Source: Oligoflexia bacterium (lineage in GTDB: Bacteria > Bdellovibrionota > Bacteriovoracia > Bacteriovoracales > Bacteriovoracaceae). Taken from it: 64,000 bases of DNA. The stretch is from NCBI GenBank assembly GCA_015231955.1, contig JADGAN010000024.1, forward strand, positions 1 through 64,000, given 5' to 3'. Shown one piece after another: positions 28,180 through 49,839 of the stretch; within the stretch, counting starts at the first letter, position 1; every line of letters begins with the position of its first letter. The position numbers were made by a program, and so were the translations under genes. The notes beneath the pieces are model-generated. The model ran no database searches, was not told where the DNA came from, and saw nothing but the letters and a program-made list of their open reading frames with translations.

Positions 28180-28213
28180 TTGAGGCCTCAATCCAGGCCT
28201 CAATCGAGGCCTG
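28179..28213. terminator. Nested palindromes in a convergent gap, possible terminator
   Basis: ATTGAGGCCTCAAT (28179-28192) is a perfect palindrome. CAGGCCTC-AATC-GAGGCCTG (28194-28213) forms a perfect 8-bp stem with a 4-base loop. Both share the GAGGCCT core. They fill the gap between convergent genes, where a two-way terminator is expected, but no long T-run follows, so this is not a textbook intrinsic terminator. Confidence 0.5.
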
Positions 28214-28220
28214 CCCTCTG

Positions 28221-32025: not shown

Positions 32026-32157
32026 ATGTCATGCCTCTAGATGGTTTATCGTCAAGCTCGGAAAAATTATTTAATCAAAAGATAAAAAATATTTTAAGTA
32101 TGCAGATCAACCACCGATGAGAAGTGGTACCCTAGAACAGAAGATAAGGAGCCAACC

Positions 32158-33282: not shown

Positions 33283-35271
33283 ATGCCTGGAATTGCTATT
33301 GTTGGAAACATGTGTGTTGGCAAAAGTACCTTGTTTGCCAAGTTATGTGGAGTTAATACCAAAAGTGTTAACTATCCCGGAACCACTGGAACCATCACTG
33401 TTGGACATATGGGTGGTTCTAAGGGGCAGCTAGTAGTTGATACCCCAGGCACCAGTTCGATCTTTATGCACAATGAAGACGAACGAGTTTCTCGTGATTT
33501 TTTCCTCTCTTTTGATGACATCACAAAAATTAAAAACATTGGGGCCATTAAAAGTGGTGCTTTTGTAGCGCTTTTTGTGGCCGATGCTAAAAACTTAAAA
33601 CGCTCTCTGGCCTTGGCAATTCAATATGCAGAGTATGATGTTCCCATGCTCCTCAATGTTAACATGGTCGATGAGGCCGATAGCCGTGGGATCAGCACTG
33701 ACTATCAACTGCTTTCAGAGATTTTAGGGATCGATGTTTGCTACTCCGTGGCCACCGAGGGGAAGGGCGTGCGGGATATAAAAAGTAAGCTGACCTCACC
33801 GCGTACACCAAACAAACTCATCCAATACCCTGCCAAGGTAGAGGAGTTCATTCGTCTCACTCAAAAACTTTTTGCCAACCTAGGGCACACTATCTCGAGA
33901 GGGGTGATCATCTTGCTTTTGGCCCAAGATAAGAGTGCAAGCAAGTATGTGGCAAAAACTTTCGGGGAAGAGGTCTTAGAACAAATTAATGGACTACGAG
34001 AAGAGTATGAACGAGGAGAGTGTACTCCCTTTGCCATTCTCATAACCAACCTCTTTCATAAAAAAGCAGACGAGATTGTTTCCCGGGTACAGCGAAAAGA
34101 GGAGTCTGCAAAAAATTTGTATGGGGATAAATTTGGCCGTTGGTGTATGCAACTCACCACAGGAATTCCCATCGCCCTGATGATCATTTACTGCATGTAC
34201 CTTTTTGTGGGCGTCTTTGCGGCGACGTTCTTAGTGGACACCATTAGCGGAACTTTTTTTACAGGAATATTGTATCCTCTTTGCCAACAGCTGGTCTCCT
34301 TCATTCCCAATGCCTTTATCAGGGATATGATGATCGATGAGAATTTTGGCTTTATTCCAACGGGCATTTTTTTAGCGTTTGGTCTCGTGTTGCCGGTGTT
34401 GTTTTGTTTTTACATCTTTTTTAGTATCCTGGAAGATTCAGGATACCTACCACGCCTCTCCTTTCTCTTAGACAAAGTTTTTCACAAGATTGGCCTTAAT
34501 GGAAAAGGTGTTATGCCTCTTATTATGGGTTTTTCCTGTGTAACTATGGCCATGCTAACCATTCGAGTGCTCGATACCAAAAAAGAGAAGCAGATTGCCA
34601 CACTCCTTTTACTTTTAGGAATTCCTTGTGCCCCACTGTTTGGAATTATGTTTGTGATTTTAGGAAAGATGCCGATCGCCGCCACCTGGGTATTTTTTGC
34701 CATTGTTGCTTTCCAGGTATCCCTTGCCGGATATTTGGCCAACAAATTTTTAGTAGGCAAACGTTCTCCTCTGCTTCTGGAGATCACTCCGATGCGCTGG
34801 CCGCATCCGCTGCAGGTTTTAAAAAAATCGTTATGGAAAACCTACTCTTTTCTCAAAGAGGCCACTCCTATTTTTATTATGGCCTCAATTATCTTATTTC
34901 TCTTTGATCGTAGTGGTGGCCTTATCCTCCTGGAAAAAATTTTAAAACCCATTACGAACGATTTATTAGGATTACCTCTAGAAAGTGTGCAAGTTTTTAT
35001 TAAGGCAATCATTCGCAAGGAAAATGGCGCAAGTGAACTTCGCCATTTGAGTGAGGCCAGCGGAGGGGGGATCTATAGTAATCTACAACTCCTTGTAAAT
35101 ATGTTGGTGATGAGTGTACTCATTCCTTGCTTAAATACAGTTATTATTGTGGTAAAAGAGCGGGGAATTAAAGTAGCATTATCTTTATTGTGCATTATTA
35201 TCTCGTGGGCAATTCTATCGGGAAGTATCCTGAACCATGTTTGCAAACTATTGGGAGTGACATTTACTTAA
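33283..35271 (+). CDS. feoB: FeoB-type ferrous iron transporter, divergent gate
   Basis: The 662-residue protein has an N-terminal G domain (G1 GNMCVGKST, NYPGTTGT, G3 DTPG, G4 NMVDEAD), a helical linker, and eight or so membrane helices with the two Cys-containing gate segments GFSCVTMAML and GIPCAPLFGI. In usual FeoB the gates read like GFGCNVPA and PCGARLP, so this one has changed around the conserved Cys. FeoB drives Fe2+ import, and cluster-specific FeoB copies supply iron to magnetosomes. The gene is followed after one base by a DtxR-FeoA fusion. No clear Shine-Dalgarno precedes ATG. Confidence 0.9.
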   Translation: MPGIAIVGNMCVGKSTLFAKLCGVNTKSVNYPGTTGTITVGHMGGSKGQLVVDTPGTSSIFMHNEDERVSRDFFLSFDDITKIKNIGAIKSGAFVALFVADAKNLKRSLALAIQYAEYDVPMLLNVNMVDEADSRGISTDYQLLSEILGIDVCYSVATEGKGVRDIKSKLTSPRTPNKLIQYPAKVEEFIRLTQKLFANLGHTISRGVIILLLAQDKSASKYVAKTFGEEVLEQINGLREEYERGECTPFAILITNLFHKKADEIVSRVQRKEESAKNLYGDKFGRWCMQLTTGIPIALMIIYCMYLFVGVFAATFLVDTISGTFFTGILYPLCQQLVSFIPNAFIRDMMIDENFGFIPTGIFLAFGLVLPVLFCFYIFFSILEDSGYLPRLSFLLDKVFHKIGLNGKGVMPLIMGFSCVTMAMLTIRVLDTKKEKQIATLLLLLGIPCAPLFGIMFVILGKMPIAATWVFFAIVAFQVSLAGYLANKFLVGKRSPLLLEITPMRWPHPLQVLKKSLWKTYSFLKEATPIFIMASIILFLFDRSGGLILLEKILKPITNDLLGLPLESVQVFIKAIIRKENGASELRHLSEASGGGIYSNLQLLVNMLVMSVLIPCLNTVIIVVKERGIKVALSLLCIIISWAILSGSILNHVCKLLGVTFT

Positions 35272-35272
35272 A

Positions 35273-35938
35273 ATGAATATCAGCGAAAGACATGAAGAGA
35301 TCTTAGAGGCCATCTGGATTGCCTCCGAGAGAAAAGAGTTCTCAACAGAGTCGATAAAAAAAGAGTGTGTTATTGACTTTGTAGAGGTTGATCTATCACA
35401 AATAGAGTCGCACGGTTTTATTTTACGAGATCAGCATAAAATTCTCTTCTCCGCTCAAGGCAAAAAGTATGCAGAAAAAATTATTCGCAGGCAACGCTTG
35501 GCCAAAGTTTTACTAAGCTCCATCTTAAAAATCAGGAATGCTCAAATGGAAGAGCTTGCCTGTAAGATCGAACACACGTTGCTGCCTGAAGTAGAGGAGT
35601 CGATTTGTACACTTCTTGGCCATCCGGAAGTTTGTCCCAATGGAGAGTCGATTCCCCGAGGGAGATGCTGTGGAAATAAGGTCGAAAAGCTCGATAGAGT
35701 CATTCGCAGTTTAAAAGAGCTGGCCCCTGGAGAGTCTGGCAAAATTATTTATATAAAACCAGACAACCATGAACAACTTCATCGCTTGATCGCTTTTGGA
35801 CTAAACCCAGGAATTGTGATTGCAGTTCATATGAACTTTCCCGCTTTTTGTATCAAATTTGGCAATACCGAGTTGGTTTTAGACGCTGAAATTGCCGGCA
35901 ACATCTTTGTTTTGAAGTCCAGACCACTTGGGGAATGA
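35273..35938 (+). CDS. DtxR/MntR-type metalloregulator fused to FeoA domain
   Basis: The 221-residue protein has an N-terminal winged helix (about 1-60), a dimerisation and metal-binding domain with EHTLLPEVEESIC and LGHPEVCPNGESIPRG, typical for the IdeR/DtxR family, then a C-terminal SH3-like FeoA domain (about 145-220). A CC pair (GRCCGNK) occupies the linker. Regulators of this type repress iron uptake genes when Fe2+ binds. The FeoA part could also contact FeoB, encoded immediately upstream, making one protein a sensor and transporter partner. The ATG lies two bases after the feoB stop, so translation is coupled. Confidence 0.85.
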   Translation: MNISERHEEILEAIWIASERKEFSTESIKKECVIDFVEVDLSQIESHGFILRDQHKILFSAQGKKYAEKIIRRQRLAKVLLSSILKIRNAQMEELACKIEHTLLPEVEESICTLLGHPEVCPNGESIPRGRCCGNKVEKLDRVIRSLKELAPGESGKIIYIKPDNHEQLHRLIAFGLNPGIVIAVHMNFPAFCIKFGNTELVLDAEIAGNIFVLKSRPLGE

Positions 35939-36092: not shown

Positions 36093-37529
36093 ATGAGCAA
36101 AAAGGATAGTTGCAGTGATAAGAGCGGGAATTGTTTTGCAAGAGGTAGCTTCTCTCTTATAAAGGCCCTCGGCAAAGGTATCGGCAAATCGTGTGGCCTT
36201 GTGGAATCCATGACTAAAGGTGTTCGCTCCACTCCAAGCAAAATTGCTGGCATCAATCTTAGTAGCAAAAAAGTTACAGGGTTATTCACTGGAGGATTAA
36301 GAAAAAAGTTTGGGGTGAACAAATCGGAGGTAAAAACTCGCATTTCCTACCTCAAAGGCCAAATCAACGAATTATACCTGGAGATGGGAAAACTCGGCGC
36401 CCAAAATATTGATCCTGAAAAAAGTGTCTTCGATTCCAAGGAGGTGCAGGAACTAACACTGCAAATTGAAAATTATGAAAAAGAGGTAAACTCCCTCAAT
36501 AAATATTTGAACGAAATCGAAGAGCTGGAAAAGCAAAATATTCGATTATCAGATATCAATCTACAGGATAAAGATCAAGAACATTTAGAAGGAAGTGATC
36601 GAAAAATTCAATCAGCGATTGAAAGTTGTATTAAAAAATCAAAATTTCCTCTCAAATCGGATGCTCTTATTTTTCAAAAAATCCTTTATGATTTATTAGA
36701 TAAAGATGTAGACATCAGAAGGCTAGCGGTTGGCCAATTGGGAAAAATGGGACATAAGCAGTGTGCTGCTGTTTTAAAAGAGGTCTTGAAAATAAAAAAT
36801 GAACAGCTGCAGGCCGAAGTTATTAATGCCTTAATCCTACTCGAAGATCATGAACTCTTTAATCTTTGCAAAATCTTCATCAAGCACGACTATACGCCCC
36901 TACGTTCCGCCTGTGTACGCGGCTTATATAAAGTAGGCAAACAAGAGAGCATTCCTTACCTGGTCGCTACCCTTCAAGATGAAAACGCTGAAATCAGGAA
37001 CTCTTCTGCAATGTTTCTGGGTTGGTTAGATGCCAAGGTCGCAATCCCTTCCTTATTACAAGCAGCGCTGGATTTCGATAAAAGGGTTCGCTTAAGTGCT
37101 ATCTCCTCACTTGCAAATATTCGTGATGAAACCTCAGTGCTTCCTTTGGCCAGGCTTCTTAATACTGATGATAAAGAGATCAGGAAAAAGGTCACAAGCG
37201 CCATCTCTAAAATTATTGGTGATGATTTTAAATTTAAAAGCGATGCCAGCGAAGAAGAGCGATCACAGGAGATCACAGATTTTAAAGATTGGTATTTGAA
37301 AAAGAAGCATGGTATGCGAACGGCAGCACTTTCAGAAACGCTGGAGCTAACTCCAGCATCAGCAGTATTAGAAACCGCAGCAACTGCAACGACAGCAGAA
37401 ACAGCAGAGACGGCAGAGGCCGCAGGGATGACAGAAACAACACCTGCTCAAGATGAGGATACTATCTCGGATACAGCGGATACCAGCTCTGACAACAAAC
37501 CTAAAAAGAGATCAAACAAAAAGGCTTAA
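36093..37529 (+). CDS. HEAT-repeat protein with coiled coil and Thr/Ala-rich tail
   Basis: The 478-residue protein has a basic, Gly/Ser-rich N-terminal segment (about 1-75), a coiled coil (about 80-170), five or so HEAT-like helical repeats (about 190-385, for example YLVATLQDENAEIRNSSAMFL) and a low-complexity tail of AETAE-type repeats ending in a Lys-rich stretch. HEAT arrays bind proteins, so a scaffold role is likely. It is the first gene of a long plus-strand operon leading to the actin-like and mam genes. Coiled-coil proteins of this kind are known in the mad gene set of deep-branching magnetotactic bacteria, but I cannot assign a specific mad number. Confidence 0.75.
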   Translation: MSKKDSCSDKSGNCFARGSFSLIKALGKGIGKSCGLVESMTKGVRSTPSKIAGINLSSKKVTGLFTGGLRKKFGVNKSEVKTRISYLKGQINELYLEMGKLGAQNIDPEKSVFDSKEVQELTLQIENYEKEVNSLNKYLNEIEELEKQNIRLSDINLQDKDQEHLEGSDRKIQSAIESCIKKSKFPLKSDALIFQKILYDLLDKDVDIRRLAVGQLGKMGHKQCAAVLKEVLKIKNEQLQAEVINALILLEDHELFNLCKIFIKHDYTPLRSACVRGLYKVGKQESIPYLVATLQDENAEIRNSSAMFLGWLDAKVAIPSLLQAALDFDKRVRLSAISSLANIRDETSVLPLARLLNTDDKEIRKKVTSAISKIIGDDFKFKSDASEEERSQEITDFKDWYLKKKHGMRTAALSETLELTPASAVLETAATATTAETAETAEAAGMTETTPAQDEDTISDTADTSSDNKPKKRSNKKA

Positions 37530-37532
37530 TTT

Positions 37533-38609
37533 ATGGAAAAAAATACTCCAGTGACTGATCAACTTTTTCCTCTAAAAAAGCTTGTAGAGCACGTAAGAAG
37601 CGGTAAACCGCTTGCCGCCATTCGAGAAGATTATCAAGTGATTGCAAGTCGGTTACTAAACATTGCTAAGTTGGATCCATTGGAGAGCAGTGAACACCTC
37701 AGTGCGGCCATAGAAAAAATAAAAAAATCGCTAGAGGCAAGCGAAGTTGGAAGTGATGCCTTAGCACTGGAGCTCTCTACACTGGATGATTCCCTCCAGC
37801 AGCAAACCAACTTAGTGTTTGAAAAGTTGTTGCGAAATGAACTACGTGATGCAGAACAAGCTTCGAGCACCCCTTTTGAATTTATCCTCAAGCACTTCTC
37901 CTCACTAGGGGAGCATGAGGTGCAATGCTTAAAAGAGAAGGGCATCTTCAGTGAGCAAGATTTTCTTGGCAGTGACCCCTTGGAATTAGCAAGTCATCTC
38001 GGTGTTGCAACAAATATCGTCATGGAGTTGATGGCCTTTTTTGAGCAATACAATAAGGTCAAAGAGAATCTTGAACTCGCGGAAAAAGTTTTTAAAATTT
38101 ATCAGCTGAATTGTCAGTTAAACAGTGACATTGAGGCGCTAACTTCTGACAATAATATTTTGATAGAAAGCAACAAAAATTTACACCTTAAATATGATCA
38201 AATTCATCCGCTTTATACACAAAAAATCGAGGAGATGAAAAAGCTTCAAAACTTAGTGACCACTTCTCAAATTGAATGCAACCGCTTGGCCATGGAGATC
38301 AATTTTTTAAAAGATGAGCGCCATAAACTCTCTTTAGTGGCCGAAGAGAAGCATTTAATCTTGGGCAAACTTTTAAAACGCATCGATTCTCTTAAAAAGA
38401 GCTACGATTTTATCAAGGGAGAAACCATTTTTTCTGAAGACATGTTACTCCATTTAGAATCGTTGATGGAAGATGCCTTAAGTTATGGTCAAGTTTTTGG
38501 CGAAAAACTAGAGAACACCAAAGAGTCATTGGAAACGCTTTTTTCTGAACTAAATGAGACAATCAAAAAAGGAAAAACGATCTTTTATAAGGAATTAAAA
38601 CAAATTTAA
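37533..38609 (+). CDS. Coiled-coil protein of the magnetosome cytoskeletal operon
   Basis: The 358-residue protein has a helical N-terminal domain, a helix-hairpin-helix-like segment (EKGIFSEQDFLGSDPLELAS, about 140-175) and then coiled coil from about 180 to the end with regular Leu/Ile heptads. There is no membrane segment or catalytic motif. It starts three bases after the preceding stop. Three coiled-coil genes in a row (this and the next two) between a HEAT scaffold and ParA suggest building blocks of filaments or linkers for the magnetosome chain. Confidence 0.7.
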   Translation: MEKNTPVTDQLFPLKKLVEHVRSGKPLAAIREDYQVIASRLLNIAKLDPLESSEHLSAAIEKIKKSLEASEVGSDALALELSTLDDSLQQQTNLVFEKLLRNELRDAEQASSTPFEFILKHFSSLGEHEVQCLKEKGIFSEQDFLGSDPLELASHLGVATNIVMELMAFFEQYNKVKENLELAEKVFKIYQLNCQLNSDIEALTSDNNILIESNKNLHLKYDQIHPLYTQKIEEMKKLQNLVTTSQIECNRLAMEINFLKDERHKLSLVAEEKHLILGKLLKRIDSLKKSYDFIKGETIFSEDMLLHLESLMEDALSYGQVFGEKLENTKESLETLFSELNETIKKGKTIFYKELKQI

Positions 38610-38627
38610 GCATGAGGTAGGTTACTG

Positions 38628-39206
38628 GTGGAAAATTTAGACAAGACAATCGATATTAATAGTCTCAAGATTAAGACTTATGAGCATATTGATAAGAGTA
38701 AAATCACGGAACAGCTGGAGAAAATATCCAAGCTACGCTTGTCCGATTTTTTGGATGCCAAGGAAAGTGACTTCAAAAGCAATATCAATGAGATGTTCTC
38801 AACGATAAAATACCTGGATTCAACGCTTCGTAGTATGATTGAACTCAATTCTACGCTTAAAAATGAGGCCCAAGAACATCAACGTCAAATCAAAAAACTT
38901 GAGAGTAGCAATAAAGAGATCAAAGAGAAGTTACTTTTTCATGAGAACAGCACGCCAGTTTTAAATGACCTTGAATATAAGTTGGATCTAGCACTAGAAG
39001 ATCGGGAGAAGTTTAAAGAGTTTGCAAAGCAAGCTGGCGAACACAATCAAAAGTTGCAACAAAATATCGAAACCCTAGAAATTTTACTCGAGAGAGCAGA
39101 AGAAGAGTTGCGAGATACACGAAGAGAAAAAGAGATCATTTCACAAGAGCTCCATCAAGCAAAAGAGGCCTTAACAGATATTTATACTCACATTCAGAAA
39201 GGGTAA
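38628..39206 (+). CDS. Coiled-coil protein
   Basis: The 192-residue acidic protein is almost entirely helical, with two predicted coiled-coil stretches (about 70-105 and 125-190). GTG 38628 is the start, after GAGGT. No domain is recognised. Its place in an unbroken series of cytoskeletal genes suggests a structural partner for the neighbouring coiled-coil proteins. Confidence 0.7.
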   Translation: MENLDKTIDINSLKIKTYEHIDKSKITEQLEKISKLRLSDFLDAKESDFKSNINEMFSTIKYLDSTLRSMIELNSTLKNEAQEHQRQIKKLESSNKEIKEKLLFHENSTPVLNDLEYKLDLALEDREKFKEFAKQAGEHNQKLQQNIETLEILLERAEEELRDTRREKEIISQELHQAKEALTDIYTHIQKG

Positions 39207-39217
39207 GGGACCTACAA

Positions 39218-39985
39218 GTGAAAAACACATCATCGACGATAAAGAAACAACTGCTTAGTAGTTGGGATCAGATGAAAGTCAAGTACCCCGTGGTTGTTGA
39301 TAAAAGTGCAGTGAAAGGTGATACTGTCAAAGAAGAATTTTTACAGTATATTGATGGGCTAAGGAGTGTAGGGGAGATTAGTCAATACCTCACATTAGAC
39401 GCAAGTGAGGCGCACCTGGTTTTTTCTAACCTCTTGGCGATAAAAGCAATTCGCTTCATTGACCATTATGAAAGGTTAACTTTGCTAAATCGCCAAAATG
39501 CTGAGCTTAAAAACAACCAGGCCTTCTTAGCTGAAGAGAATAATAAATTAAAAGGCGAAAAGTATTACTTAAGTAGGCAAATCGAGAGTAAGCAAAAAGA
39601 GATGCTCACGATTGCAGAGGTGATGCCATCGCTGCAAGAACGCTTGCAGGAGTTTAATCGTGAAATCGACACCCTTAAGAGCAATTCTACCGAACTATGG
39701 GATTATAATTCCGATCTTTTAGGTCTGGTTAAAGATATGAGTATTAAGGAAAAACAAATCAATGAAATTTTCATTGAGATCGAAGCTGCTCTCCCCAAAC
39801 TCATAAAAAAGAAAAAAAGAATGTCTGAGCTTTTAAGTAAGGCCGATGAACGAGTTAATGATATTGATGTAAAAAATATCAAAATCAAAAGATTACTCTC
39901 TCTTTATCATGAGTCTGTGGAAGAGGTGCGTGATTATCTCTTTGATGCAAAGACTCATCTTAATTATTTTAAAAATGATATGTAG
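39218..39985 (+). CDS. Coiled-coil protein with DUF4388-like N-terminus
   Basis: The 255-residue protein begins with a small helical domain (EEFLQYIDGLRSVGEIS followed by a winged-helix-like segment) that resembles the DUF4388/PATAN tail domain used for protein contacts in sensory and motility scaffolds. The rest is coiled coil with charged heptads. GTG 39218 is the start. It may link sensory proteins to the filament genes that follow. The DUF4388 resemblance is by eye only. Confidence 0.65.
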   Translation: MKNTSSTIKKQLLSSWDQMKVKYPVVVDKSAVKGDTVKEEFLQYIDGLRSVGEISQYLTLDASEAHLVFSNLLAIKAIRFIDHYERLTLLNRQNAELKNNQAFLAEENNKLKGEKYYLSRQIESKQKEMLTIAEVMPSLQERLQEFNREIDTLKSNSTELWDYNSDLLGLVKDMSIKEKQINEIFIEIEAALPKLIKKKKRMSELLSKADERVNDIDVKNIKIKRLLSLYHESVEEVRDYLFDAKTHLNYFKNDM

Positions 39986-40003
39986 AAAGGGAGATAAGGA
40001 CTT

Positions 40004-41038
40004 ATGTTGGAATCGTGCTATACCATGCCCCTAAAAGAGTTTTGTGAAATTTTCACTCTATCCGCATTAGAGGTGCACCATTTTTTCCAGGAAAATAACG
40101 TAGAGTTAGAAAGGATTGGTAGTCTCATCCGCATCACCCCTGAAAATTTCGAGCTAATGCTTCAAGCAAGGAGCCTAGGAAAAACTAAGCTAGTGATTAC
40201 TTCTTCCTGTGTTAAAGGAGGTGTTGGTAAAACCACACTCACCAACTGCTTGTCTGCGAAAATCTCCACCTATGGCCATAAAACTTTAATGATTGACCTG
40301 GATCAACAGGCCAACCTCACGTCCAGCTTTGGCGTTGACTCTTCCATGGGAGTGTATCCGACTATCCTGGATGCTTATCGTGGCCATTTTCAAGGAAAAA
40401 AGATTTCAATCCAAGATATTGTTATCAACATCACCTCTCACCTTGCGATCATCCCTGCTAATTTAGAAATGGCATCACTAGATGCAGAATTTTCTGGAAA
40501 AACAGAAAATGTGGGAAAATTTTTCAAGAAATTATTACAACCTATTCGTGATCAATTCGATATCATTTGGTTTGATTGCCCTCCTGCACTCACTAAAATA
40601 ACCAGCGCGGCCCAGGCCGCCTCAGACTTAGTGGTGATTCCCATTAACACCGATAAATTTTCTCTCGATGGATTGGATCTAACCATCGATAGTATCGTTA
40701 CTTTACATAAAAATTTTGACGTTAATCCTGAAGTGAAAATTGTCATCAACAAATTTGATTCCAGGCAAAAGTTAGGCTTCCAAATTCTTTCTCTGGTCTC
40801 CCAAGGAGAGTACAAAGAGTACCTCTCCAATACTTTTATTCCCGTTTCCAAGCAAATGGATAACTGTATCGCCTCTAAAAGCAACATATGGGATCCTCAC
40901 TTTAAAGGATCGGCCCAAGATGGTTTGATGGAGTTGGCACAAGAGATCATTGGGATCGATAAATGGTTTACGGAGACACCATACCTACCGCAACCTAAAA
41001 CCACGCTCGATCATTTTACTGGAGTTACGCATGTCTAA
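40004..41038 (+). CDS. ParA/Soj-type ATPase with N-terminal helix-turn-helix-like domain
   Basis: The 344-residue protein begins with about 60 residues resembling the small DNA-binding domain found on many ParA proteins. The ATPase follows, with deviant Walker A (CVKGGVGKTTL including the signature Lys), the A' motif MIDLDQQANLT, and Walker B IIWFDCPPAL. ParA proteins form gradients on the nucleoid or membrane to move cargo. No canonical parB or parS is seen, but a small protein follows with 8 bases overlap. Magnetosome positioning is a likely cargo, by analogy to other ParA-type organelle systems such as those for carboxysomes. Confidence 0.8.
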   Translation: MLESCYTMPLKEFCEIFTLSALEVHHFFQENNVELERIGSLIRITPENFELMLQARSLGKTKLVITSSCVKGGVGKTTLTNCLSAKISTYGHKTLMIDLDQQANLTSSFGVDSSMGVYPTILDAYRGHFQGKKISIQDIVINITSHLAIIPANLEMASLDAEFSGKTENVGKFFKKLLQPIRDQFDIIWFDCPPALTKITSAAQAASDLVVIPINTDKFSLDGLDLTIDSIVTLHKNFDVNPEVKIVINKFDSRQKLGFQILSLVSQGEYKEYLSNTFIPVSKQMDNCIASKSNIWDPHFKGSAQDGLMELAQEIIGIDKWFTETPYLPQPKTTLDHFTGVTHV

Positions 41039-41333
41039 GTCTAAACCAAGAGTGAAAGGCATCTCAGGATTACTTCAAAGTCAAAAGGCACACAAATTCA
41101 AAGACACCTCTTTTCTCTGGTGTGAACGGAACCCAAGAGCAGATCCCATTACTACGACTACCACTAGCACTGCCACTGCCACTACCACCATCACCGCCAC
41201 CCCGATCGCGGAGGAAATACTGAAGATAAGTGATGAGGATGAAAGCGCACTCACTAAAACGCTGGAACTGAGTTGGAGTAAAATCGGAGCAAAATTACAA
41301 CAAAAGAAAATGTCCAACCTAAAGCTTGATTAA
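41031..41333 (+). CDS. Small protein, possible ParA partner
   Basis: The 100-residue protein starts MSKSKPRVKGISGLLQ, recalling the basic, Gly/Leu-containing N-terminal peptide by which ParB and ParB-like partners stimulate ParA. A Thr/Ala-rich linker encoded by a triplet-type repeat (41148-41205) joins it to a helical C-terminus. ATG 41031 overlaps the ParA stop. The peptide similarity is short, so partner function is a hypothesis. Confidence 0.55.
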   Translation: MSKSKPRVKGISGLLQSQKAHKFKDTSFLWCERNPRADPITTTTTSTATATTTITATPIAEEILKISDEDESALTKTLELSWSKIGAKLQQKKMSNLKLD

Positions 41334-41350
41334 AGACGAAGATAAAGACA

Positions 41351-43159
41351 ATGAAAAAAAAATTTCCGATTACGCTTGAGACCTTTGCTCCCAATAAAGT
41401 GGCCCTATACCAGCAGCTCTATTCCGATATAGGAATGATGAATCACTATTACGATATTTTACCAGAGGAACTAGTTAAAGATCTGGCAAACGATCTCAAG
41501 CTACTGCTAGATCACGACATCTCTAGCTATTTTAAAATTATTTTTTATAATCCTCTGAATGAACAGGATATCTATTTAGAAAAATCCTATCTCATCGCTG
41601 ACTCTTTGAAAAAGGGTAACACTTATGAACAAATAAAATATGATCTCCCGCGACCGTATGAGTTCGACATCTTCACCGGTTTTTCAGAAGCTTTTCTGGC
41701 CTTTGCGGAAGAGCACCAGAATAGCATCTTAAAAAAGATGAACTTTAAGTGGTTTAAAATGACCGAGGCATTACCCGGATTAGAAGAGATAGGCAAAATA
41801 GAAAATACAGAAGAAGCAAAAGAAGCAAAAGAAACAAAGGAAACAAAGAAAGCAAATACTCTTCCAATGATAGCACCAACAGCAGTTGTGCCCCCCTCTT
41901 TTACTTTAAAAACCCCTCTCACAATTGCTTCCTACGCCAATAGCGATTCACGAAAGTTGATTGATGAGTTTGTTGCGATATCCTTAAAGCAAGCTTTAAC
42001 TCCAATCCTCTGGACGCATTCGGAAGGGCTAAAAATCATTGGGGAGAGTTATTCCAGTCAATATATTTTTAATGATGAACTTTTCACCAGAGTTTTTTTA
42101 TCACCCTTTGATGTCTTAAAGCACATCAAAAATGCACGAAAACAAAACGTCTCTTATATCCTGGAAGATTTTCACTACTACCTCTCCCGAGATAACCTTT
42201 CTGGCGCAGAATTCACCGAGTTCATTTCGCTCATCAAATCGATGCAAAGCGATCTAAAAAGCTGCAATAGTTTTCTCACCATTTTAGCACCCCACTTAGA
42301 CCTGCCTCCAGAGATTGCACCAATCTTTGAAACGATCAAAAATAGCAGCGGGAAAAAAAAGTTTCACTACTTGGACAAATACGGAACCGACCTTACAAAA
42401 TTGGTTTTAGAACAAAAGATCAGACCGATTGTAGGACGAGAAGCCGAGATTACCGAGTGTCTTAAAATTATTTCTAAATTGGAAACCAACAACCCTTTAC
42501 TGGTAGGCCAATCGGGAGTGGGTAAAACTGCCATTGTAGAAGGATTAGCGGCCACTCTCATTAACAATAAAATCTCTCCACTGTGGTCACAAAAGAGGAT
42601 CATCTCCTTAAACTTGAATTTGATGATCTCTGGAACAAAATACCGAGGAGAATTTGAAAACCGCTTAGAAGGTTTGCTCGACGAGGTTAAAGATAATGAT
42701 AAAAACATCATCATCTTTATCGATGAAATTCACACACTGTTAGGAATGGGTAGAACGGAAGGCTCTATGGGCGCAGAAAATGTGCTGAAACCAGCTTTGG
42801 CCAGAGGAGAGTTTCCCTGTATTGGTGCCACTACTAGTGAAGAGCACGATAACTATATTAGGCCAGATAAAGCGCTTTCGCGCAGGTTTCAAATTGTCCA
42901 GGTGAGTGAACCCGATACAGAATACACATTGAAAATTCTCAGAGGGATTAAAAATATCTATGAAGGGCACCACCAGGTGGAGATTTCAGAGCAGGCCTTA
43001 ATCAAGTGCGTGGAGATCTCTGCTCAACTACTGAAAGGGCAATATTTTCCTGGCAAGGCAATTAAAGTTATGGATAACGCTTGCGCCTCTGCCTCCATCA
43101 TTGGACAAAAGGTGGTGACACCAGAATTTGTCATAAGCGAGTTTACTAAAAAGATGTAG
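41351..43159 (+). CDS. AAA+ protein: Ycf46-like N-domain joined to ClpA/B-like ATPase
   Basis: The 602-residue protein has a helical start, an acidic Glu/Ala/Lys/Thr repeat linker (about 150-170), then a segment (about 210-330) like the degenerate AAA domain at the front of Ycf46-type proteins (YILEDFHYYLS, TILAPHLDLPPEI). The last part (about 345-600) is a single Clp/Hsp100-type AAA+ module with REAEITECL, Walker A VGQSGVGKTA, Walker B IIIFIDEIH, sensor GATTSEEH and Arg finger ALSRRFQ. There is no second ATPase or ClpP-binding loop. It could remodel or disassemble the neighbouring actin or coiled-coil filaments. Confidence 0.75.
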   Translation: MKKKFPITLETFAPNKVALYQQLYSDIGMMNHYYDILPEELVKDLANDLKLLLDHDISSYFKIIFYNPLNEQDIYLEKSYLIADSLKKGNTYEQIKYDLPRPYEFDIFTGFSEAFLAFAEEHQNSILKKMNFKWFKMTEALPGLEEIGKIENTEEAKEAKETKETKKANTLPMIAPTAVVPPSFTLKTPLTIASYANSDSRKLIDEFVAISLKQALTPILWTHSEGLKIIGESYSSQYIFNDELFTRVFLSPFDVLKHIKNARKQNVSYILEDFHYYLSRDNLSGAEFTEFISLIKSMQSDLKSCNSFLTILAPHLDLPPEIAPIFETIKNSSGKKKFHYLDKYGTDLTKLVLEQKIRPIVGREAEITECLKIISKLETNNPLLVGQSGVGKTAIVEGLAATLINNKISPLWSQKRIISLNLNLMISGTKYRGEFENRLEGLLDEVKDNDKNIIIFIDEIHTLLGMGRTEGSMGAENVLKPALARGEFPCIGATTSEEHDNYIRPDKALSRRFQIVQVSEPDTEYTLKILRGIKNIYEGHHQVEISEQALIKCVEISAQLLKGQYFPGKAIKVMDNACASASIIGQKVVTPEFVISEFTKKM

Positions 43160-43209
43160 ATGATAATTTTATATAGTGTAAAATAAAATAGATAAAAGAG
43201 GAATAAGAC

Positions 43210-44421
43210 GTGAATGATTTAACACATGCTACCCCTATTGGCTGCGAACTAGGAACATCGGCATCAAAATTTTGCTGTGACGATACCTTGGTCATCTTCT
43301 CTTCCGTGGTTGGTGACTCCCTCACTGAAAAGATGGAAGAAAGTTGGCGACTAATGAATCGCTCGAAAGATTCTAGGTGGGCGAGAAATCTCGCTATTTT
43401 TGACGATTCAAGAAATTCCTGGCGGTACGTAGGGGCCATGACGAGAAACTCTGAGCGAGTCAATTGGTTTACAGATCAAGGGCTCATTAGAGACCATGAG
43501 GATGCTTTTTTAGCAACCAAAGCGGGTTTGTTTTTACTAGCACAGGAGATGGAAACGCAAAATAAACCCATCAAACAAATCTGTATTGGTTTTGGCATTA
43601 CGGTTCGTCATGGAGAGAATGTCATTGAAAATTTTTTCTCCTTCATGAAGGATAAATTGATTGTTCGAGAAGGAAAAAAATTTTTAACCATTAAGGCAAA
43701 AAATGTGGCCTTAAATCAGATCAAGGAGATTGAAGTAGAGCTGGTCTTTTCGGTGATGCAATACCAGGCCTATGGCGCCTATATGAGCTTACTTTTTAGT
43801 AAATATAATATGAATATTTACAATACCTATATTGTCGATATTGGCCATGGAACTTGGATTAAGTTACCCATTATTGAAAATGAGGCAGAGATCAACTTAT
43901 CAGACTCCTTTACCGAAGGTGTGCACACTATTACTAAAAATATTTCCAAAGTTATTTTCGAATCCAGTGCTCAAAAATTTAAGATTCCCGAACAAAGGAT
44001 AATGGAGCGGCTGCCCTCAAAAGATTATAAACTAGAGGTTCCGGGAGTGGGAGTTTACGATTTTACAAAATATTTGCAGCATGAAAGTCAACTCATGGCC
44101 AGAAGTATTGTCCAACGCATCTCCAATGACATGTCCTTGTTGTCGCAAAAAGGGCATACTGTCGACTATTTTTTAATTATTGGTGGTGGAGCTCATCTGC
44201 TGACAGAGACCATTCGCAGTGAAATCGGAAAATTTTTTGAGTGGCCGGAAGAGGTGTTAACGCAAAAAATAATAGACGCGAACACCCTAGGCGTGGATCC
44301 AAGGTACATCAATTGTGTAGGGCTCATGCTTTTGGCCAGAGACCAAATAGCTCTTGAAATGAATCAAGAGGTCGATCCGGTTTACTGTATTAAAACTATT
44401 ATCCAAGATACGGCCCAATAG
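43210..44421 (+). CDS. Actin-like ATPase 1 (ParM-like)
   Basis: The 403-residue protein fits the actin fold. A phosphate-1 loop, GCELGTSASKF, has Glu in place of the usual Asp. A phosphate-2 loop, YIVDIGHGTW, and an adenosine motif, FLIIGGGAHLL, follow. It is nearer to plasmid ParM/Alp-type than to MamK or MreB. GTG 43210 follows AAGAGG. It is followed by a small helical gene, as parR follows parM in plasmid systems. It probably forms filaments in the magnetosome chain. The Glu change may slow hydrolysis. Confidence 0.75.
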   Translation: MNDLTHATPIGCELGTSASKFCCDDTLVIFSSVVGDSLTEKMEESWRLMNRSKDSRWARNLAIFDDSRNSWRYVGAMTRNSERVNWFTDQGLIRDHEDAFLATKAGLFLLAQEMETQNKPIKQICIGFGITVRHGENVIENFFSFMKDKLIVREGKKFLTIKAKNVALNQIKEIEVELVFSVMQYQAYGAYMSLLFSKYNMNIYNTYIVDIGHGTWIKLPIIENEAEINLSDSFTEGVHTITKNISKVIFESSAQKFKIPEQRIMERLPSKDYKLEVPGVGVYDFTKYLQHESQLMARSIVQRISNDMSLLSQKGHTVDYFLIIGGGAHLLTETIRSEIGKFFEWPEEVLTQKIIDANTLGVDPRYINCVGLMLLARDQIALEMNQEVDPVYCIKTIIQDTAQ

Positions 44422-44441
44422 GGGTGTTGCAAGGGGAAAAC

Positions 44442-44966
44442 ATGGAAGGATTGTATTATCTTGTTGTCGACCAGGAATTGAAAGGACTTCTTGAAAAAGT
44501 TGCTACTCATCATCCAGAGGCCTCTAAAGGAGTTTTAAAACTTATTCTTAAAATGTACTTAAAGCTTGCAGACAAAAGTAAGCGCAAAGGCAAAGATCCT
44601 TTGATTGCATTCCAAAATTTAGTCGAGAGCGTAATGGGAGAGAAACCCTGTGAAACCACCAGGGAGAAAATCGAATATTTAGATACAATTTTAGAAGAAA
44701 AAGATCCTAAAAATTCCTCTTCTCATTATAGCAATTCCTCCGTTGTTGAAGATATCAAAGAAATAAAGTCCTTAATCAAAGAGATCAGAGGGTTCTCTCG
44801 TTTGGGAAGTGCACAACAACTGGTTGAGAATTTTAGGCCCACTGGCCCCTCAGAACTGATTGAACTGCAGCAGAACAATAGTAGTGATCACCCCCCTGAA
44901 CCTAAGAAAAAGAAAAATTTCAAAGATATCAGAAGAGATAAAATGAATAAAGTCGTCAAATTTTAG
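44442..44966 (+). CDS. Small helical protein, possible filament adaptor
   Basis: About 174 residues from ATG 44442 (AAGGGG upstream). The N-terminal half is helical and basic. A Ser-rich acidic linker follows, then a C-terminal Pro/Lys-rich tail with a KKKK cluster. No known domain is recognised. Its position between two actin-like genes, like parR after parM, makes an adaptor role worth testing, but there is no sequence similarity to ParR that I can see. Confidence 0.6.
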   Translation: MEGLYYLVVDQELKGLLEKVATHHPEASKGVLKLILKMYLKLADKSKRKGKDPLIAFQNLVESVMGEKPCETTREKIEYLDTILEEKDPKNSSSHYSNSSVVEDIKEIKSLIKEIRGFSRLGSAQQLVENFRPTGPSELIELQQNNSSDHPPEPKKKKNFKDIRRDKMNKVVKF

Positions 44967-44969
44967 TGT

Positions 44970-46004
44970 ATGAAAAAAATTTTCATTGATCCAGGTGAGT
45001 TTTATATCAAAGTGTTGGTGCTCGATTATGTGGATAGTTGGCAATTCTATGGACGAACTTTTTTTCCTGCACTGACGTGTGCATCTAAAAAAAACGAACG
45101 CCACCCACAGCAAATATATTACGAAAACAATAACCTGCTTTATCAAATTGGTTATGATTGTTCTGAGATAAATTTCAATCAAGCTTTTGTTGATTATAAC
45201 CATAGCTATGATCACGTGCCGACTAGCAAAATTGGCCCTGAGAGTGGAAAATTATTTATCAATAAGAGTCTTTTTGACTTTGCCTCTGACCAGGAAGAGG
45301 TAGCATTGTCGATTGTGGTCGACTCTCCTGCAAAGTTGCAACTTTTTAAAGAGATCGTTAATAACATTCAAAACGATAGGCCTTACGAGATTAAGGCCTA
45401 TCGTGAACTTGATCAGCGAATGATTAGCAAAAGCATTAAGTTAACGACGAGCTTTGCCCTGGCCAGCGATGCCGCTTGTGCCTTAGTCAAGAAAAAATTT
45501 GAGAGTTATAGTCATGCTTTAGTGGTGGACATTGGTCACAGCAGCAGCAAAATCTACACCATTCATTCCCAAGAGGGTGTGCGCTTATTTGGACAACTTG
45601 AAATAGGAATGCATTGTTATTACAAAAAAATCATCGACTTATTACAAGAGAAGGGAATTGAACAGATCGATTATTTTTGGTTGATAAAGCAGCTGGAGCT
45701 TGGACTAGGAAACATTGAAATTCCTGATCATAAAAATGTTTATACGTTCGATCTCTCTTTAATAATTGATAACATCCGATGGGATTTCAATAAAAATTTC
45801 AACAAAGAAATTACCGATACCATTAAATCCTATTTTACACAACTGGCCTTTGCTGTTGATTCCATTTTCATCATGGGTGGAGGAGCTGTTTTTAATGGTG
45901 ATCTCCTCTGCGCATCGCTGGTGAATAGTGGGTATAATCTGCATAACATTTACATTGAAAAGTCACCGATGTACAATATCTTATTGGGGACTTGCTACTA
46001 CTAA
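44970..46004 (+). CDS. Actin-like ATPase 2
   Basis: The 344-residue protein has actin-fold nucleotide motifs: IDPGEFYIKV (phosphate 1, Asp kept), ALVVDIGHSSSKIY (phosphate 2) and FIMGGGAVFNG (adenosine). Sequence between the motifs differs greatly from the previous actin-like protein, so it is a separate lineage and not a recent duplicate. It begins three bases after the preceding stop. Filament formation is expected. The cargo is presumably the magnetosome chain. Confidence 0.75.
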   Translation: MKKIFIDPGEFYIKVLVLDYVDSWQFYGRTFFPALTCASKKNERHPQQIYYENNNLLYQIGYDCSEINFNQAFVDYNHSYDHVPTSKIGPESGKLFINKSLFDFASDQEEVALSIVVDSPAKLQLFKEIVNNIQNDRPYEIKAYRELDQRMISKSIKLTTSFALASDAACALVKKKFESYSHALVVDIGHSSSKIYTIHSQEGVRLFGQLEIGMHCYYKKIIDLLQEKGIEQIDYFWLIKQLELGLGNIEIPDHKNVYTFDLSLIIDNIRWDFNKNFNKEITDTIKSYFTQLAFAVDSIFIMGGGAVFNGDLLCASLVNSGYNLHNIYIEKSPMYNILLGTCYY

Positions 46005-46022
46005 CTGAACATAAGGAAGTTT

Positions 46023-46355
46023 ATGGAGTGTTCTGATTATTTAACTGAAGGTAACAAGTGCTTATCTAATTTTGCGGTCTATGTTGGAAAATTTTTTGGA
46101 ATGGTGGTCTACCAAAGCAAGAAATTGAATCTTTCTTTGCAAGAGGGCATCACCCAGATACGCCTAGATGAGTTCACAGGAAAATTAAGTTGTGTCAAAA
46201 AATTGCTTCCCTCAGGAAAGCGCCAGTTATTGAACGAGGCGTCTCCTGATCGTGATTTTTATGCTCATTTCGGAAAAGATCTTATTGAACTTTCAAAAGC
46301 AAATTTAAAAAGTGAAAACATAACGATCATTGATGTTTCAAAATACAAACTGTAA
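46023..46355 (+). CDS. Small protein of unknown function
   Basis: The 110-residue product has mixed composition, no signal peptide or membrane helix and a few Cys at the N-terminus. A ribosome binding site (ATAAGGAAGTTT) and operon position support that it is real. No family is recognised. It lies between two actin-like genes and could be another accessory factor. Confidence 0.6.
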   Translation: MECSDYLTEGNKCLSNFAVYVGKFFGMVVYQSKKLNLSLQEGITQIRLDEFTGKLSCVKKLLPSGKRQLLNEASPDRDFYAHFGKDLIELSKANLKSENITIIDVSKYKL

Positions 46356-46389
46356 AAAATTTATCCAAAATTAATCCAGGAGGGATTTT

Positions 46390-47604
46390 ATGGCAGATAA
46401 AAGTGACGAAGGACTTCTAAAAAGATTACTCAATTCCAATAGTGAAATAGAGCACGAACGCGAGCGCACTCACGAAAGCATTCATGAGCACACCTATGCA
46501 AATCCCAATTCTCCTCCTCCGACCCCTCCCGTGGGCGAAAGCGACTATTTACATCAAAAAGTTGGCGATCTAAAAGATGCCGCAAAACATTTAGACAATA
46601 ATAGAGAGTTAAATATCTCTAAAAAAGCTGTCGGTGTGGATGTTGGAACCAGTCGAATTGTCAGTGCTAGAATTGGTGGCGATTACAAAGAGATAACCCA
46701 ATCGGAGCTAAATGCTTTTTTTATGTTGCCCTTTTCTACAATCTCTCAGGATTTATTGACGAAAAATAAGATGAACTATGTCAAAACCAAAGACAACCTC
46801 GCCGTCTATGGGATTCATGGGCAAGTTTTCGCAAACATGTTTAATGGAGAATTATTGCGTCCCATGAAAGATGGCCTACTAAAATCAGAAGAACCTAATG
46901 CGGTTCATATGATTAAAGAGATCATTTCTTTAGTCGTTAACAAACCAGAAGAACTAGGTTCTAAGCTATGTTTTTCCATTCCTGCGCCTCGCTTGGGTTC
47001 AGAGAGTGATCTTATTTTTCATGAGGCCATCTTAAAAAAATATTTTGTGGCCGCCGGATATAACGCAATTTCTATCAATGAAGGATTGGCAGTAGTTTTA
47101 TCGGAGCTTGCACATGACAATTATACCGGCATCGGTATAAGTATGGGGGCAGGAATGTGCAATATCTGTTTCTCTTTCATGTCTGTGCCCATTATTGTTT
47201 TTGGTCTACACCAAGGTGGCGACCTCATCGATCAAAATGTTGCCCGCGTGGTTAACGAGTCGGCAACCAGAGTGAGAGTGATCAAAGAAGAGTCTTTGGA
47301 TTTAGGTAAATCTCCCAAAAACAATCTGGAGCAGGCGCTGCATATCTATTATGATGACTTAATCTCTAGGCTAGTTAATGCGCTTGCAAGCACCTTTTCC
47401 AAGACTGAAAATTTACCCAAACTTGCTAAACCAATTCCATTAGTCTTAGGCGGAGGCACCTGTGTGCCTGCTGGATTTAAAGTTAAGTTTGATAAGATGC
47501 TAAGACAAGTTGAATTGCCCATTGAGATTTCGGAAACCAAACTCGCCGCTGATCCTCTACGGGCCACAGCAAGAGGTGCACTTGTATGTGCTGGAGCAGA
47601 ATAA
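46390..47604 (+). CDS. Actin-like ATPase 3 (MamK/Mad28-like group)
   Basis: The 404-residue protein has a His/Glu-rich, probably disordered N-terminal extension (about 1-80), then actin-fold motifs VGVDVGTSRIVSAR (phosphate 1), GIGISMGAGMCN (phosphate 2) and PLVLGGGTCVP (adenosine). In phosphate 2 the Asp that normally positions the metal and attacking water is Ser. The ribosome binding site CAGGAGGG is strong. It is the most MreB/MamK-like of the three actin homologues. In deltaproteobacterial magnetotactic bacteria a second actin-like protein, Mad28, accompanies MamK. I cannot tell which of them this matches. Confidence 0.75.
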   Translation: MADKSDEGLLKRLLNSNSEIEHERERTHESIHEHTYANPNSPPPTPPVGESDYLHQKVGDLKDAAKHLDNNRELNISKKAVGVDVGTSRIVSARIGGDYKEITQSELNAFFMLPFSTISQDLLTKNKMNYVKTKDNLAVYGIHGQVFANMFNGELLRPMKDGLLKSEEPNAVHMIKEIISLVVNKPEELGSKLCFSIPAPRLGSESDLIFHEAILKKYFVAAGYNAISINEGLAVVLSELAHDNYTGIGISMGAGMCNICFSFMSVPIIVFGLHQGGDLIDQNVARVVNESATRVRVIKEESLDLGKSPKNNLEQALHIYYDDLISRLVNALASTFSKTENLPKLAKPIPLVLGGGTCVPAGFKVKFDKMLRQVELPIEISETKLAADPLRATARGALVCAGAE

Positions 47605-47617
47605 AAAAAGGAGTCGT

Positions 47618-47932
47618 ATGATGAAATATTTACAAGAAGAGAGAAGAAAACATTTTAGATGGAGTGTTCCTTTTTCCGCCTTTGAATACAAGGGAAAACT
47701 CTTCGATGTTTTAAATATTTCAGCGCAAGGCCTTTTGGTGAAGAATGAAAAAGATCATGATGAAGATCTGTGTGCCGAGTTATTGTCTAGTAAAAACTTT
47801 GCCTTTAACTTAGTGGATAAATCCTCTAACAGTAAACTACTTTTAAATGGCAACGTGGTTAGAGTTATAAAAAAAGATACCTCTATCATGAGCTTTGCAA
47901 TTCAATTTTCACCTATCAATTCTGTACTGTAA
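47618..47932 (+). CDS. PilZ domain protein
   Basis: The 104-residue single-domain protein carries both c-di-GMP contact motifs of PilZ: RKHFR (RxxxR) near residue 12 and NISAQGLL (NxSxxG) near residue 35. ATG 47618 follows AAAAAAGGAG. It ends the actin-like gene run. PilZ proteins translate c-di-GMP level into motor or envelope changes, so it may tie magnetosome or flagellar behaviour to that signal. No diguanylate cyclase is in the window. Confidence 0.8.
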   Translation: MMKYLQEERRKHFRWSVPFSAFEYKGKLFDVLNISAQGLLVKNEKDHDEDLCAELLSSKNFAFNLVDKSSNSKLLLNGNVVRVIKKDTSIMSFAIQFSPINSVL

Positions 47933-47996: not shown

Positions 47997-48061
47997 TTGT
48001 ATTTAAATTAATTTATTTGAAAAAGTGTTTTAAATTCATTATAAATTTACAAAGAGATGAT

Positions 48062-48487
48062 GTGAAAAAAAAGTCTCCCTTATCTGAGCTTTATTTTCAA
48101 GATGTTGTAAAGTCTAAGTATAGCTTGATGTTGCTCATAGTTCTGGCAGTTTTCATCATACTTGGTCTTTTAAAAGAGTATGATCTTCGAGTAAGTAAGT
48201 CGGTTATAACTGGGACAGAGCAAGTTTTAAAACCAAAATTGGTGCAACAGACAAGTGTGACTATGAACCCTCAGCGATTTGATAAATTCAACAATGTAAA
48301 AAAAGCCACCTCGTTCACAATAGTTGACTCCATGATGGGTGGAAGCAGTGTCTGTGCCTGTCCTTTATGCAAAATAATTTTTATACATAATGATAGTTGT
48401 GAAGAGAGATGCCCTCACTGCCATAAACGTTTGATGGATGCAATTTATGCAGGTGGGATTCCTTCTTATGTTGCGAATAAAAAATAA
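48062..48487 (+). CDS. Membrane-anchored CxxC / CxxCH protein
   Basis: About 141 residues from GTG 48062 (TTG 48017 is possible). One transmembrane helix near the N-terminus (SLMLLIVLAVFIILGLL) leads to an outside domain ending in CACPLC, a 13-residue gap and CPHCH, then KRLMDA. The paired CxxC look like a zinc ribbon, while CPHCH also fits a c-type heme site. The layout matches two proteins encoded at 59786-60792. A metal or heme role in magnetosome redox chemistry is likely, but which cofactor is bound cannot be read from sequence. Confidence 0.65.
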   Translation: MKKKSPLSELYFQDVVKSKYSLMLLIVLAVFIILGLLKEYDLRVSKSVITGTEQVLKPKLVQQTSVTMNPQRFDKFNNVKKATSFTIVDSMMGGSSVCACPLCKIIFIHNDSCEERCPHCHKRLMDAIYAGGIPSYVANKK

Positions 48488-48510
48488 AGTAACAAACAAA
48501 GGTTATAGCA

Positions 48511-48864
48511 GTGCCAACAAAGAAAAATTTTCATTTGATTCTAGGGCTTACTTTTCTTTTTATAGGCCTTTATGGTGTTTATGATGAGATCTACAACGTT
48601 GTCGATTTTATCAAAGGGATTGTGCAACCAATCACATTGGCGGTTGGTGGATTTCTCTTATTCCTAGGCATGCAACGAGGTGAGGCGGGAGCAATTAAAA
48701 ATGCTTTACTAGGCGCTGGGACACTGATTTTGGTAGTAGGATTCTATGGGCTTTATGATGAGTGGTATGCCTTTAGTGACATGATGTTAGGTGTGTTGCC
48801 ACTCCTTTGTATTGCTTTTGGGGGATTATCATTAATTGCAGGAATTAATAAATTAAAAGCATAG
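48511..48864 (+). CDS. mamI: Double MamI-like membrane protein
   Basis: The 117-residue protein is an internal duplication. Each half is a two-helix hairpin with the pattern LxFxGLYGxYDE...F...V(Q)PxxLAxGG, for example LFIGLYGVYDEIYNV and LVVGFYGLYDEWYAF. MamI in magnetospirilla is a ~70-residue single hairpin with a similar GLxGL...WW...PLxL...G layout, and it is needed for the formation of magnetosome membrane invaginations. GTG 48511 is the start. The next gene holds a third copy. It is named MamI-like on pattern and context, not on alignment. Confidence 0.65.
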   Translation: MPTKKNFHLILGLTFLFIGLYGVYDEIYNVVDFIKGIVQPITLAVGGFLLFLGMQRGEAGAIKNALLGAGTLILVVGFYGLYDEWYAFSDMMLGVLPLLCIAFGGLSLIAGINKLKA

Positions 48865-48877
48865 GGGTGGCCACGAT

Positions 48878-49114
48878 ATGATGCAAGTAATTTTAGGACT
48901 TTTTTTATTGGCATTCGGACTATGGGGACTATTTGATTCTTGGAACTACGTCCTCGATTTTTTTAGTGGAGTTATGCCTTTGGCAATGATGGGCATTGGT
49001 GCATTTTCCATTGCTCTTTATTTCATTGATCCCAAAGTTATCAATAAACAAACGGATGATAAAGAAAATACAGACGATATAATAGAAGACGATAAGGAAA
49101 TGGAAGGTGCATGA
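48878..49114 (+). CDS. mamI: MamI-like membrane protein
   Basis: The 78-residue protein has two membrane helices in a hairpin (ILGLFLLAFGLWGLFDSWNY and LDFFSGVMPLAMMGIGAFSI) and a charged, acidic tail. Its size and pattern are the closest match in the window to MamI. Its stop overlaps the MamA start (ATGATGG), giving coupled translation with mamA, as in mam operons elsewhere where mamI and mamA are near each other. Confidence 0.7.
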   Translation: MMQVILGLFLLAFGLWGLFDSWNYVLDFFSGVMPLAMMGIGAFSIALYFIDPKVINKQTDDKENTDDIIEDDKEMEGA

Positions 49115-49806: not shown

Positions 49807-49839
49807 ATCTAAAACTGTTCATGGGGAAGGGGAATAGCG

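Follow-up and report, generated by a model that had tools for sequence, protein, structure and literature searches.

MamK has been treated as a universal marker and as the engine of magnetosome chains. The locus described here raises the question of which filament would organise such a chain where MamK is missing. It lies in a 64,000-nucleotide stretch of DNA from an Oligoflexia bacterium (assembly GCA_015231955.1, contig JADGAN010000024.1, positions 1 to 64,000; hereafter the window), in which a block of plus-strand genes at 36093-47932 encodes scaffold-type proteins, ATPases and three actin-fold proteins, here called Act1, Act2 and Act3. About half of this block is known and corresponds to the Mad23-Mad28 set; what is new comprises Act1, the small protein encoded from 44424, Act2 and the small protein encoded from 46023. 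As far as the available part of Bergot et al. 2026 (PMC13200544) goes, the block is thus a known chain module carrying two unreported actins where MamK is missing. We consider it somewhat better than an even bet that it is the chain-organisation module of a MamK-less magnetotactic lineage, with Act1 and Act2 doing the filament job of MamK together with Mad23-Mad28. The link of Act1 and Act2 to magnetosomes is strong, from position and co-occurrence; that they replace MamK is what we infer from it.

Act1, Act2 and two small proteins

The new half of the block consists of four consecutive genes:
43210-44421, plus strand: Act1, a new actin-like protein of predicted ParM class (PF21522, 1.2e-7; model matches ParM, Ta0583 and CorM)
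44424-44966, plus strand: small conserved protein between Act1 and Act2, with a basic, conserved C-terminal tail (at this position in all 11 Act1 genomes)
44970-46004, plus strand: Act2, a new actin-like protein of predicted ParM class and a fast-evolving Act1 paralogue (model against ParM; same genomes as Act1)
46023-46355, plus strand: small conserved protein encoded downstream of Act2 (homologues in the same position in G084, G085, G086, G003 and G818; C-terminal match in others)

An earlier note, made from the window's sequence alone, had claimed three mutually divergent actins. Three actin-fold proteins are indeed recovered, Act3 by PF25216, Act1 by PF21522 together with its model and Act2 by its model. 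The predicted Act1 model (predicted local distance difference test score, pLDDT, 76) is nearest to ParM, Ta0583 and CorM (Foldseek E 1.8e-12). Act2 stayed below threshold by sequence (0.027), and its predicted model (pLDDT 82, predicted template modelling score 0.82) has ParM as its best PDB match (Foldseek, 1.9e-14). For both models, ParM, Ta0583 and CorM rank ahead of MreB, with template modelling scores of about 0.5-0.67 and 11-16% identity. Run against PDB sequences, the profiles of Act1 and Act2 retrieved no actin; within the PDB, actins emerged from fold comparison alone. On these models, Act1 and Act2 are predicted actin-superfamily proteins with a ParM-class fold. The claimed mutual divergence was upheld in part: neither of them relates detectably to Act3, whereas Act1 and Act2 are distant paralogues of each other (hidden Markov model comparison, 1.6e-7; hhalign P=90). 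Both retain the phosphate-2 aspartate (DIGHGT / DIGHSS) and a GGG adenosine motif.

Like MamK, Act1 and Act2 are actin-superfamily genes within a magnetosome island, but their folds point to the ParM class, and an identity with MamK was rejected, as NF040964 (cut-off 400 bits) gave no match at 0.01 and no NCBIfam model matched. An identity with Mad28 was likewise rejected, given the phosphate-2 aspartate in place of S-x-G-x-G and the lack of detectable sequence relation to Act3. No paper linking magnetosomes with ParM-like actins was found in the literature.

With ParM among the closest solved folds and a ParA encoded in the same run, Act1, Act2 and the small proteins could form a DNA segregation system of ParMRC type that sits within the island but has nothing to do with chains. 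We regard this as very improbable, since the genes lie within a magnetosome operon and are strictly linked to magnetosome genes, no centromere-like repeat array was found (only a 2.1-copy 10-bp repeat before the HEAT gene), the 44424 protein has no ParR family match, and neither plasmids nor phages nor viral contigs yielded a relative of Act1. On this last result a plasmid or phage origin of Act1 was likewise rejected. The 44424 protein matches no Pfam or PDB family; by eye a ribbon-helix-helix identity seemed possible, and it was unsupported by Pfam or PDB profiles.

Linkage to magnetosome genes and absence of MamK

The presence on the contig of MamA, MamQ, MamB/M-type, MamN and MamE genes, and further along of MamP-like and MamB genes, identifies the window as a magnetosome island. 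MamB/M-type, MamN and MamE genes are found on the minus strand of the window (one MamE with a magnetochrome domain), whereas the MamP-like protein and a MamB are encoded beyond the window on the same contig. The genes listed in the earlier note were all confirmed and form one tight plus-strand run, in which neighbours from the HEAT gene through Act3 either overlap slightly or stand 2-50 bp apart. Ten further genomes carry the block, either complete or as its principal parts, so the arrangement is not a chance one.

Act1 occurs in 8/369 genomes of the phylum, and MamB was found in 7 of those 8 and in none of the rest; the eighth (G084, 84% complete) carries mamE, mamN and mamB/M-type genes. Within the class, Act1 and Act2 are present in the same 5/129 genomes, all with the island's MamB/M-type gene, while G134, which is not among the five, gave a weak CDF match only. 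Two of the 46 UBA10199 genomes carry Act1, namely G002 (nXX_bin1), a reported magnetotactic metagenome-assembled genome (PMC7602337), and G818, in which Act1 stands next to Mad17/Mad30-type genes. A predominance of the block in genomes without mam genes, which the earlier note had named as telling against a magnetosome role, was looked for and the opposite was found, so that its reading of a cytoskeletal module serving magnetosomes is supported by this co-occurrence. A hypergeometric test of the Act1/MamB overlap gives a raw value of 5e-14, which is far too optimistic because the genomes are related.

Gene order and phylogeny are consistent with this linkage. The order Mad23-24-25-26-Mad27-receiver protein-Act1-small protein-Act2 is unbroken in G182, G352 and G353, which belong to families far from that of the window; in G182 and G353, Mad28-PilZ-ParA1 forms a second group on the same contig, and in G003 Act1-small protein-Act2 lies on another contig than Mad23-27-Mad28. 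Trees of Act1, Act2, the AAA+ protein, the HEAT protein and MamB gave the same well-supported groups where resolved, and the actins therefore travel with the island. Across lineages, Act1 is 64-66% identical, compared with 39-62% for MamB and 28-41% for MamQ, making it the most conserved island protein compared, above Mad28, whereas Act2 is among the least conserved. As a separate observation, nXX_bin1 carries two Mad28-like actins in addition to Act1 and Act2, i.e. four actins in one run (L006:3534-12421).

MamK was not detected in the source genome (5.6 Mb, 95% complete), where beyond Act3, itself rejected as MamK at 20.4 bits against the NF040964 cut-off of 400, only MreB was matched. MamK was searched for in seven Act1 genomes: G084 had no match, and in the other six every match checked was MreB. 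Conversely, Act1 was found in 0/16 Desulfobacterota genomes with strong MamK matches (395-genome sample). The earlier note had suggested that three actins elaborate on the usual MamK system; three actins there are, but they are not added to MamK, and most genes of the block are the known Mad23-28. With MamK absent here, its replacement is likelier than a simple elaboration. The block thereby supplies two specific, so far unnamed candidates for the job of MamK, and their distribution in the sets searched fits. If this is true, a different actin class took over the same organelle-positioning job.

The same distribution can be read as that of an ancestral, deep-branching chain apparatus, widespread among magnetotactic phyla and lost wherever MamK assumed its job, rather than of a lineage innovation. 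The occurrence of Act1 in several Bdellovibrionota families and in UBA10199, with trees that agree with the island genes, speaks for this, while its absence from all 16 MamK-bearing Desulfobacterota sampled speaks against it, the search having covered Bdellovibrionota, UBA10199 and Desulfobacterota. We consider an ancestral origin rather doubtful; it is compatible with a role of Act1 and Act2 in place of MamK.

The Mad23-Mad28 half and the proposed mechanism

The remaining scaffold, AAA+ and actin genes of the block are as follows:
36093-37529, plus strand: Mad23, HEAT-repeat/coiled-coil scaffold (PF13646, 1.6e-25)
37533-38609, plus strand: Mad24-like coiled-coil protein, CC1 (position after Mad23; weak profile matches, 4e-5 / 3.5e-5)
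38628-39206, plus strand: Mad25-like coiled-coil protein, CC2 (colinear gene; profile matches, 1.9e-12 / 6e-16)
39218-39985, plus strand: Mad26-like coiled-coil protein, CC3 (colinear position; weak profile matches, 3e-5 / 2e-5)
41351-43159, plus strand: Mad27-like AAA+ protein with an N-terminal domain, a middle region and a ClpB/ClpC domain-1-class ATPase (PF17871, 5e-18; TIGR03346, 6e-93)
46390-47604, plus strand: Act3, assigned to Mad28, a volactin-like actin (PF25216 Volactin, 5.9e-71)

Profiles of the block were run against the magnetosome clusters of two MamK-bearing Desulfobacterota (G743 and G398). Both clusters hold counterparts of HEAT, CC1, CC2 and CC3 in the same order, followed by a close relative of Act3 (46% identity), and the Mad23 family profile matched their HEAT genes at 5.5e-96 and 6e-89. 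No counterpart of Act1, the 44424 protein, Act2 or the 46023 protein was found in these two clusters. The Mad names derive from these matches combined with the published genes of strains RS-1 and FSS-1 (PMC12748827, PMC7951924), not from direct comparison with RS-1 sequences. A HEAT protein and coiled-coil proteins, colinear and within a magnetosome island, thus recur here as a Mad23-26 module, in which Mad24 and Mad26 are identified mainly by position. From these sequence comparisons, the HEAT protein is assigned to Mad23, CC1-3 to Mad24-26 and Act3 to Mad28, and one of the three actins listed in the earlier note is therefore Mad28.

The phosphate-2 motif of Act3, ISMGAGM, has the S-x-G-x-G pattern in place of D-x-G-x-G. 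This pattern is a reported Mad28 feature (PMC10653835), and non-magnetosome relatives have it too, so that it is not specific. As a finder of block relatives Act3 was discarded, because most of what it retrieved was a widespread volactin-like family of Desulfobacterota that lack magnetochrome genes; for the same reason Act3 alone is no magnetosome marker. The source genome has a single volactin-family gene above cut-off, the block's own. Such Mad28-like actins are common in Desulfobacterota and were also seen in one Blastocatellia metagenome-assembled genome, mostly without magnetochrome matches (L004-L023, L025-L027).

The AAA+ protein had been described in the earlier note as Ycf46/ClpA-like; its ATPase is of the ClpB/ClpC domain-1 class, and we correct the description to Mad27 with an added N-terminal domain; the filament disassembly that the earlier note considered possible is a putative role. 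G398 encodes the two parts apart, the domain as a 128-aa gene straight after Mad26 and the ATPase as a 518-aa gene of its own near Mad28 (8e-108 against the family profile), and we therefore take the window's protein for Mad27 extended by one domain; identity with the published Mad27 is inferred from size and position. The N-terminal region was found in 6/6 Act1 genomes searched and in 0/36 of the remaining members of the class; one MamK-bearing genome has a distant match. In four members, the same region matched bacterial HORMA (PF18138) at 8e-7, 0.003, 0.007 and 0.011, all below the curated cut-off, and a PDB profile search gave no match; a HORMA identity is consistent with these values but sub-threshold. 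The free 128-aa gene with the HORMA-like domain in G398 (L172:5104-5490) lies between Mad26 and a STAS-like gene adjoining Mad28.

The role of the Mad23-Mad28 set in chain organisation was demonstrated in strain RS-1 in 2025: Mad23, 25 and 26 assemble subchains, Mad28 positions them on the concave side, and MamK and Mad28 do different jobs (PMC12748827). The block resembles the RS-1 Mad23-Mad26/Mad28 module in its HEAT and coiled-coil proteins, its Mad28, its gene order and its setting in a magnetosome island. RS-1, however, has MamK, whereas the block is without it and carries two more actins and two small proteins inserted, as well as a Mad27 with the extra N-terminal domain. Also close are the clusters of magnetotactic Bdellovibrionota which, in the available part of Bergot et al. 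2026 (PMC13200544), have no mamK, carry mad17, 23, 25 and 27-30 and lie near two-component clusters; the window agrees in kind of organism, island, lack of mamK, these mad genes and a two-component cluster nearby. In that part the authors name only Mad28 as an actin and suggest it as a MamK substitute, while the window has Act1 and Act2 too; these two may be among the genes that the authors' figure highlights, without naming them, as particular to such bacteria.

Following that proposal, Mad28 (Act3) alone would do the job of MamK, and Act1 and Act2 would serve magnetotaxis otherwise, e.g. by coupling a two-component array or chemosensing to the chain. Mad28 accompanies the block; in other systems it assembles into filaments and gives partial rescue of mamK mutants (PMC10653835, PMC12713370). 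In addition, one Act1 paralogue is apparently a fusion with a receiver/coiled-coil part, and in several genomes the block has histidine-kinase clusters as neighbours. On the other hand, Desulfobacterota have Mad28 beside MamK without replacement, the two doing different jobs in RS-1 (PMC12748827), Act1 and Act2 sit directly within the Mad23-27 operon and only in examined lineages without MamK, and Act1 is conserved better than Mad28. We therefore give limited credence to a sole role of Mad28 and prefer Act1 and Act2 as the filament proteins in place of MamK.

Several points nevertheless weigh against this preference, beginning with the suggestion of Bergot et al. that Mad28 alone might do the positioning. 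The case for Act1 and Act2 is built on genomic position and co-occurrence, and co-occurrence counts overstate independent events because few lineages carry the block (three families of the phylum, UBA10199 and G003) and the island moves as a unit. The exclusivity with MamK was tested against Desulfobacterota only and is confounded with phylogeny, and G182, G352, G353 and G818 were outside the MamK search. Confidence in the Act1 model is moderate, and since Glu replaces Asp in phosphate 1 of Act1, its ATPase activity is not assured.

By homology with RS-1, Mad23-26 would link magnetosomes and Mad28 would place the chain. Act1 and Act2 would polymerise along the chain, distribute it and share it out at division, with Act1, nearly frozen in sequence, as the likely main filament subunit and Act2, the fast-evolving paralogue, as a partner or regulator. 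The 44424 protein may be a tether joining filament to scaffold, remodelling of these assemblies probably falls to Mad27 with its added domain, and receiver-domain coiled-coil proteins with adjacent histidine kinases could regulate them, tying them to the two-component cluster. Only tentatively do we put forward the full scheme for magnetotactic Bdellovibrionota and UBA10199: MamK would have given way to a two-actin ParM-class filament equipped with its own tether, an AAA+ protein fused to a HORMA-like domain would remodel this filament, and receiver-domain coiled-coil proteins would control it.

ParA, PilZ, signalling and flanking genes

The other genes of the block and its surroundings are:
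40004-41038, plus strand: ParA2, ParA-type ATPase with an N-terminal extension (PF13614, 6e-39)
41031-41333, plus strand: small ParA2 partner, probable start 41031 (overlaps the ParA2 end; stays adjacent in G084 and G085)
47618-47932, plus strand: PilZ-like protein, probable start 47618 (PF07238, 7.8e-4, just under the Pfam cut-off)
32158-33018, plus strand: ParA1, MinD/ParA ATPase, probable ATT start at 32158 after AAGGAG (homologue position)
28221-30464, minus strand: two receiver domains and a long coiled coil, probable signalling partner (PF00072, 2.5e-28)
33283-35938, plus strand: iron genes adjoining the block, FeoB-type Mad17 and DtxR-FeoA Mad30 (Pfam)
48017-50547, plus strand: start of the downstream mam cluster, with a Zn-ribbon membrane protein, small membrane proteins, MamA (NF040959, 2.3e-47) and MamQ (NF040966, 2.4e-19)

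The HEAT and three coiled-coil scaffolds, the ParA with its small partner and the weakly matching PilZ had all been recognised in the earlier note, and rightly so. Beyond the two genomes nearest to the window's, G084 and G085 (74-78%), no clear orthologue of ParA2 was found; ParA2 stands outside the widely conserved core, and ParA1 is the more consistently linked. In ParA1 the first ATG/GTG/TTG comes only after the Walker A motif (window 32146-32230), and because of this and of the preceding AAGGAG a rare ATT start at 32158, which preserves Walker A, is suggested. The likely start of the PilZ-like gene lies 14 bp past the third actin, after a good ribosome-binding site. PilZ adjoins Mad28 in most block genomes, and after Mad28 a ParA1 homologue follows PilZ or is fused to it in G081, G085, G086, G182, G353 and G003, the fusions being those of G081, G086 and G003 (L064:4201-5382, L073:5497-6675, L024:8687-9874). 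They hint at a ParA/MinD positioning factor linked to cyclic di-GMP.

A homologue of the receiver/coiled-coil protein is found directly 5' of Act1 in G182, G352, G353 and G002, and before ParA2 in G085. In G081, about 13 kb from the block, a 684-aa protein (L064:12883-14934) combines an Act1-like actin with a C-terminal part resembling the receiver/coiled-coil protein, in which Pfam called no receiver domain. A run of histidine kinases and receiver proteins lies beside the island at 20402-32025 of the window, and G352, G353 and G003 have similar kinase clusters (up to 55% identity) next to the block.

Upstream, the block is preceded by the ParA, FeoB and DtxR-FeoA genes, and in several genomes the Mad17/Mad30 pair keeps close to the block or to mam genes. 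A promoter scan gave nothing in excess of shuffles. Finally, matches to group II intron domains (RF01998, RF02001) were observed at window positions 280-568 on the minus strand.

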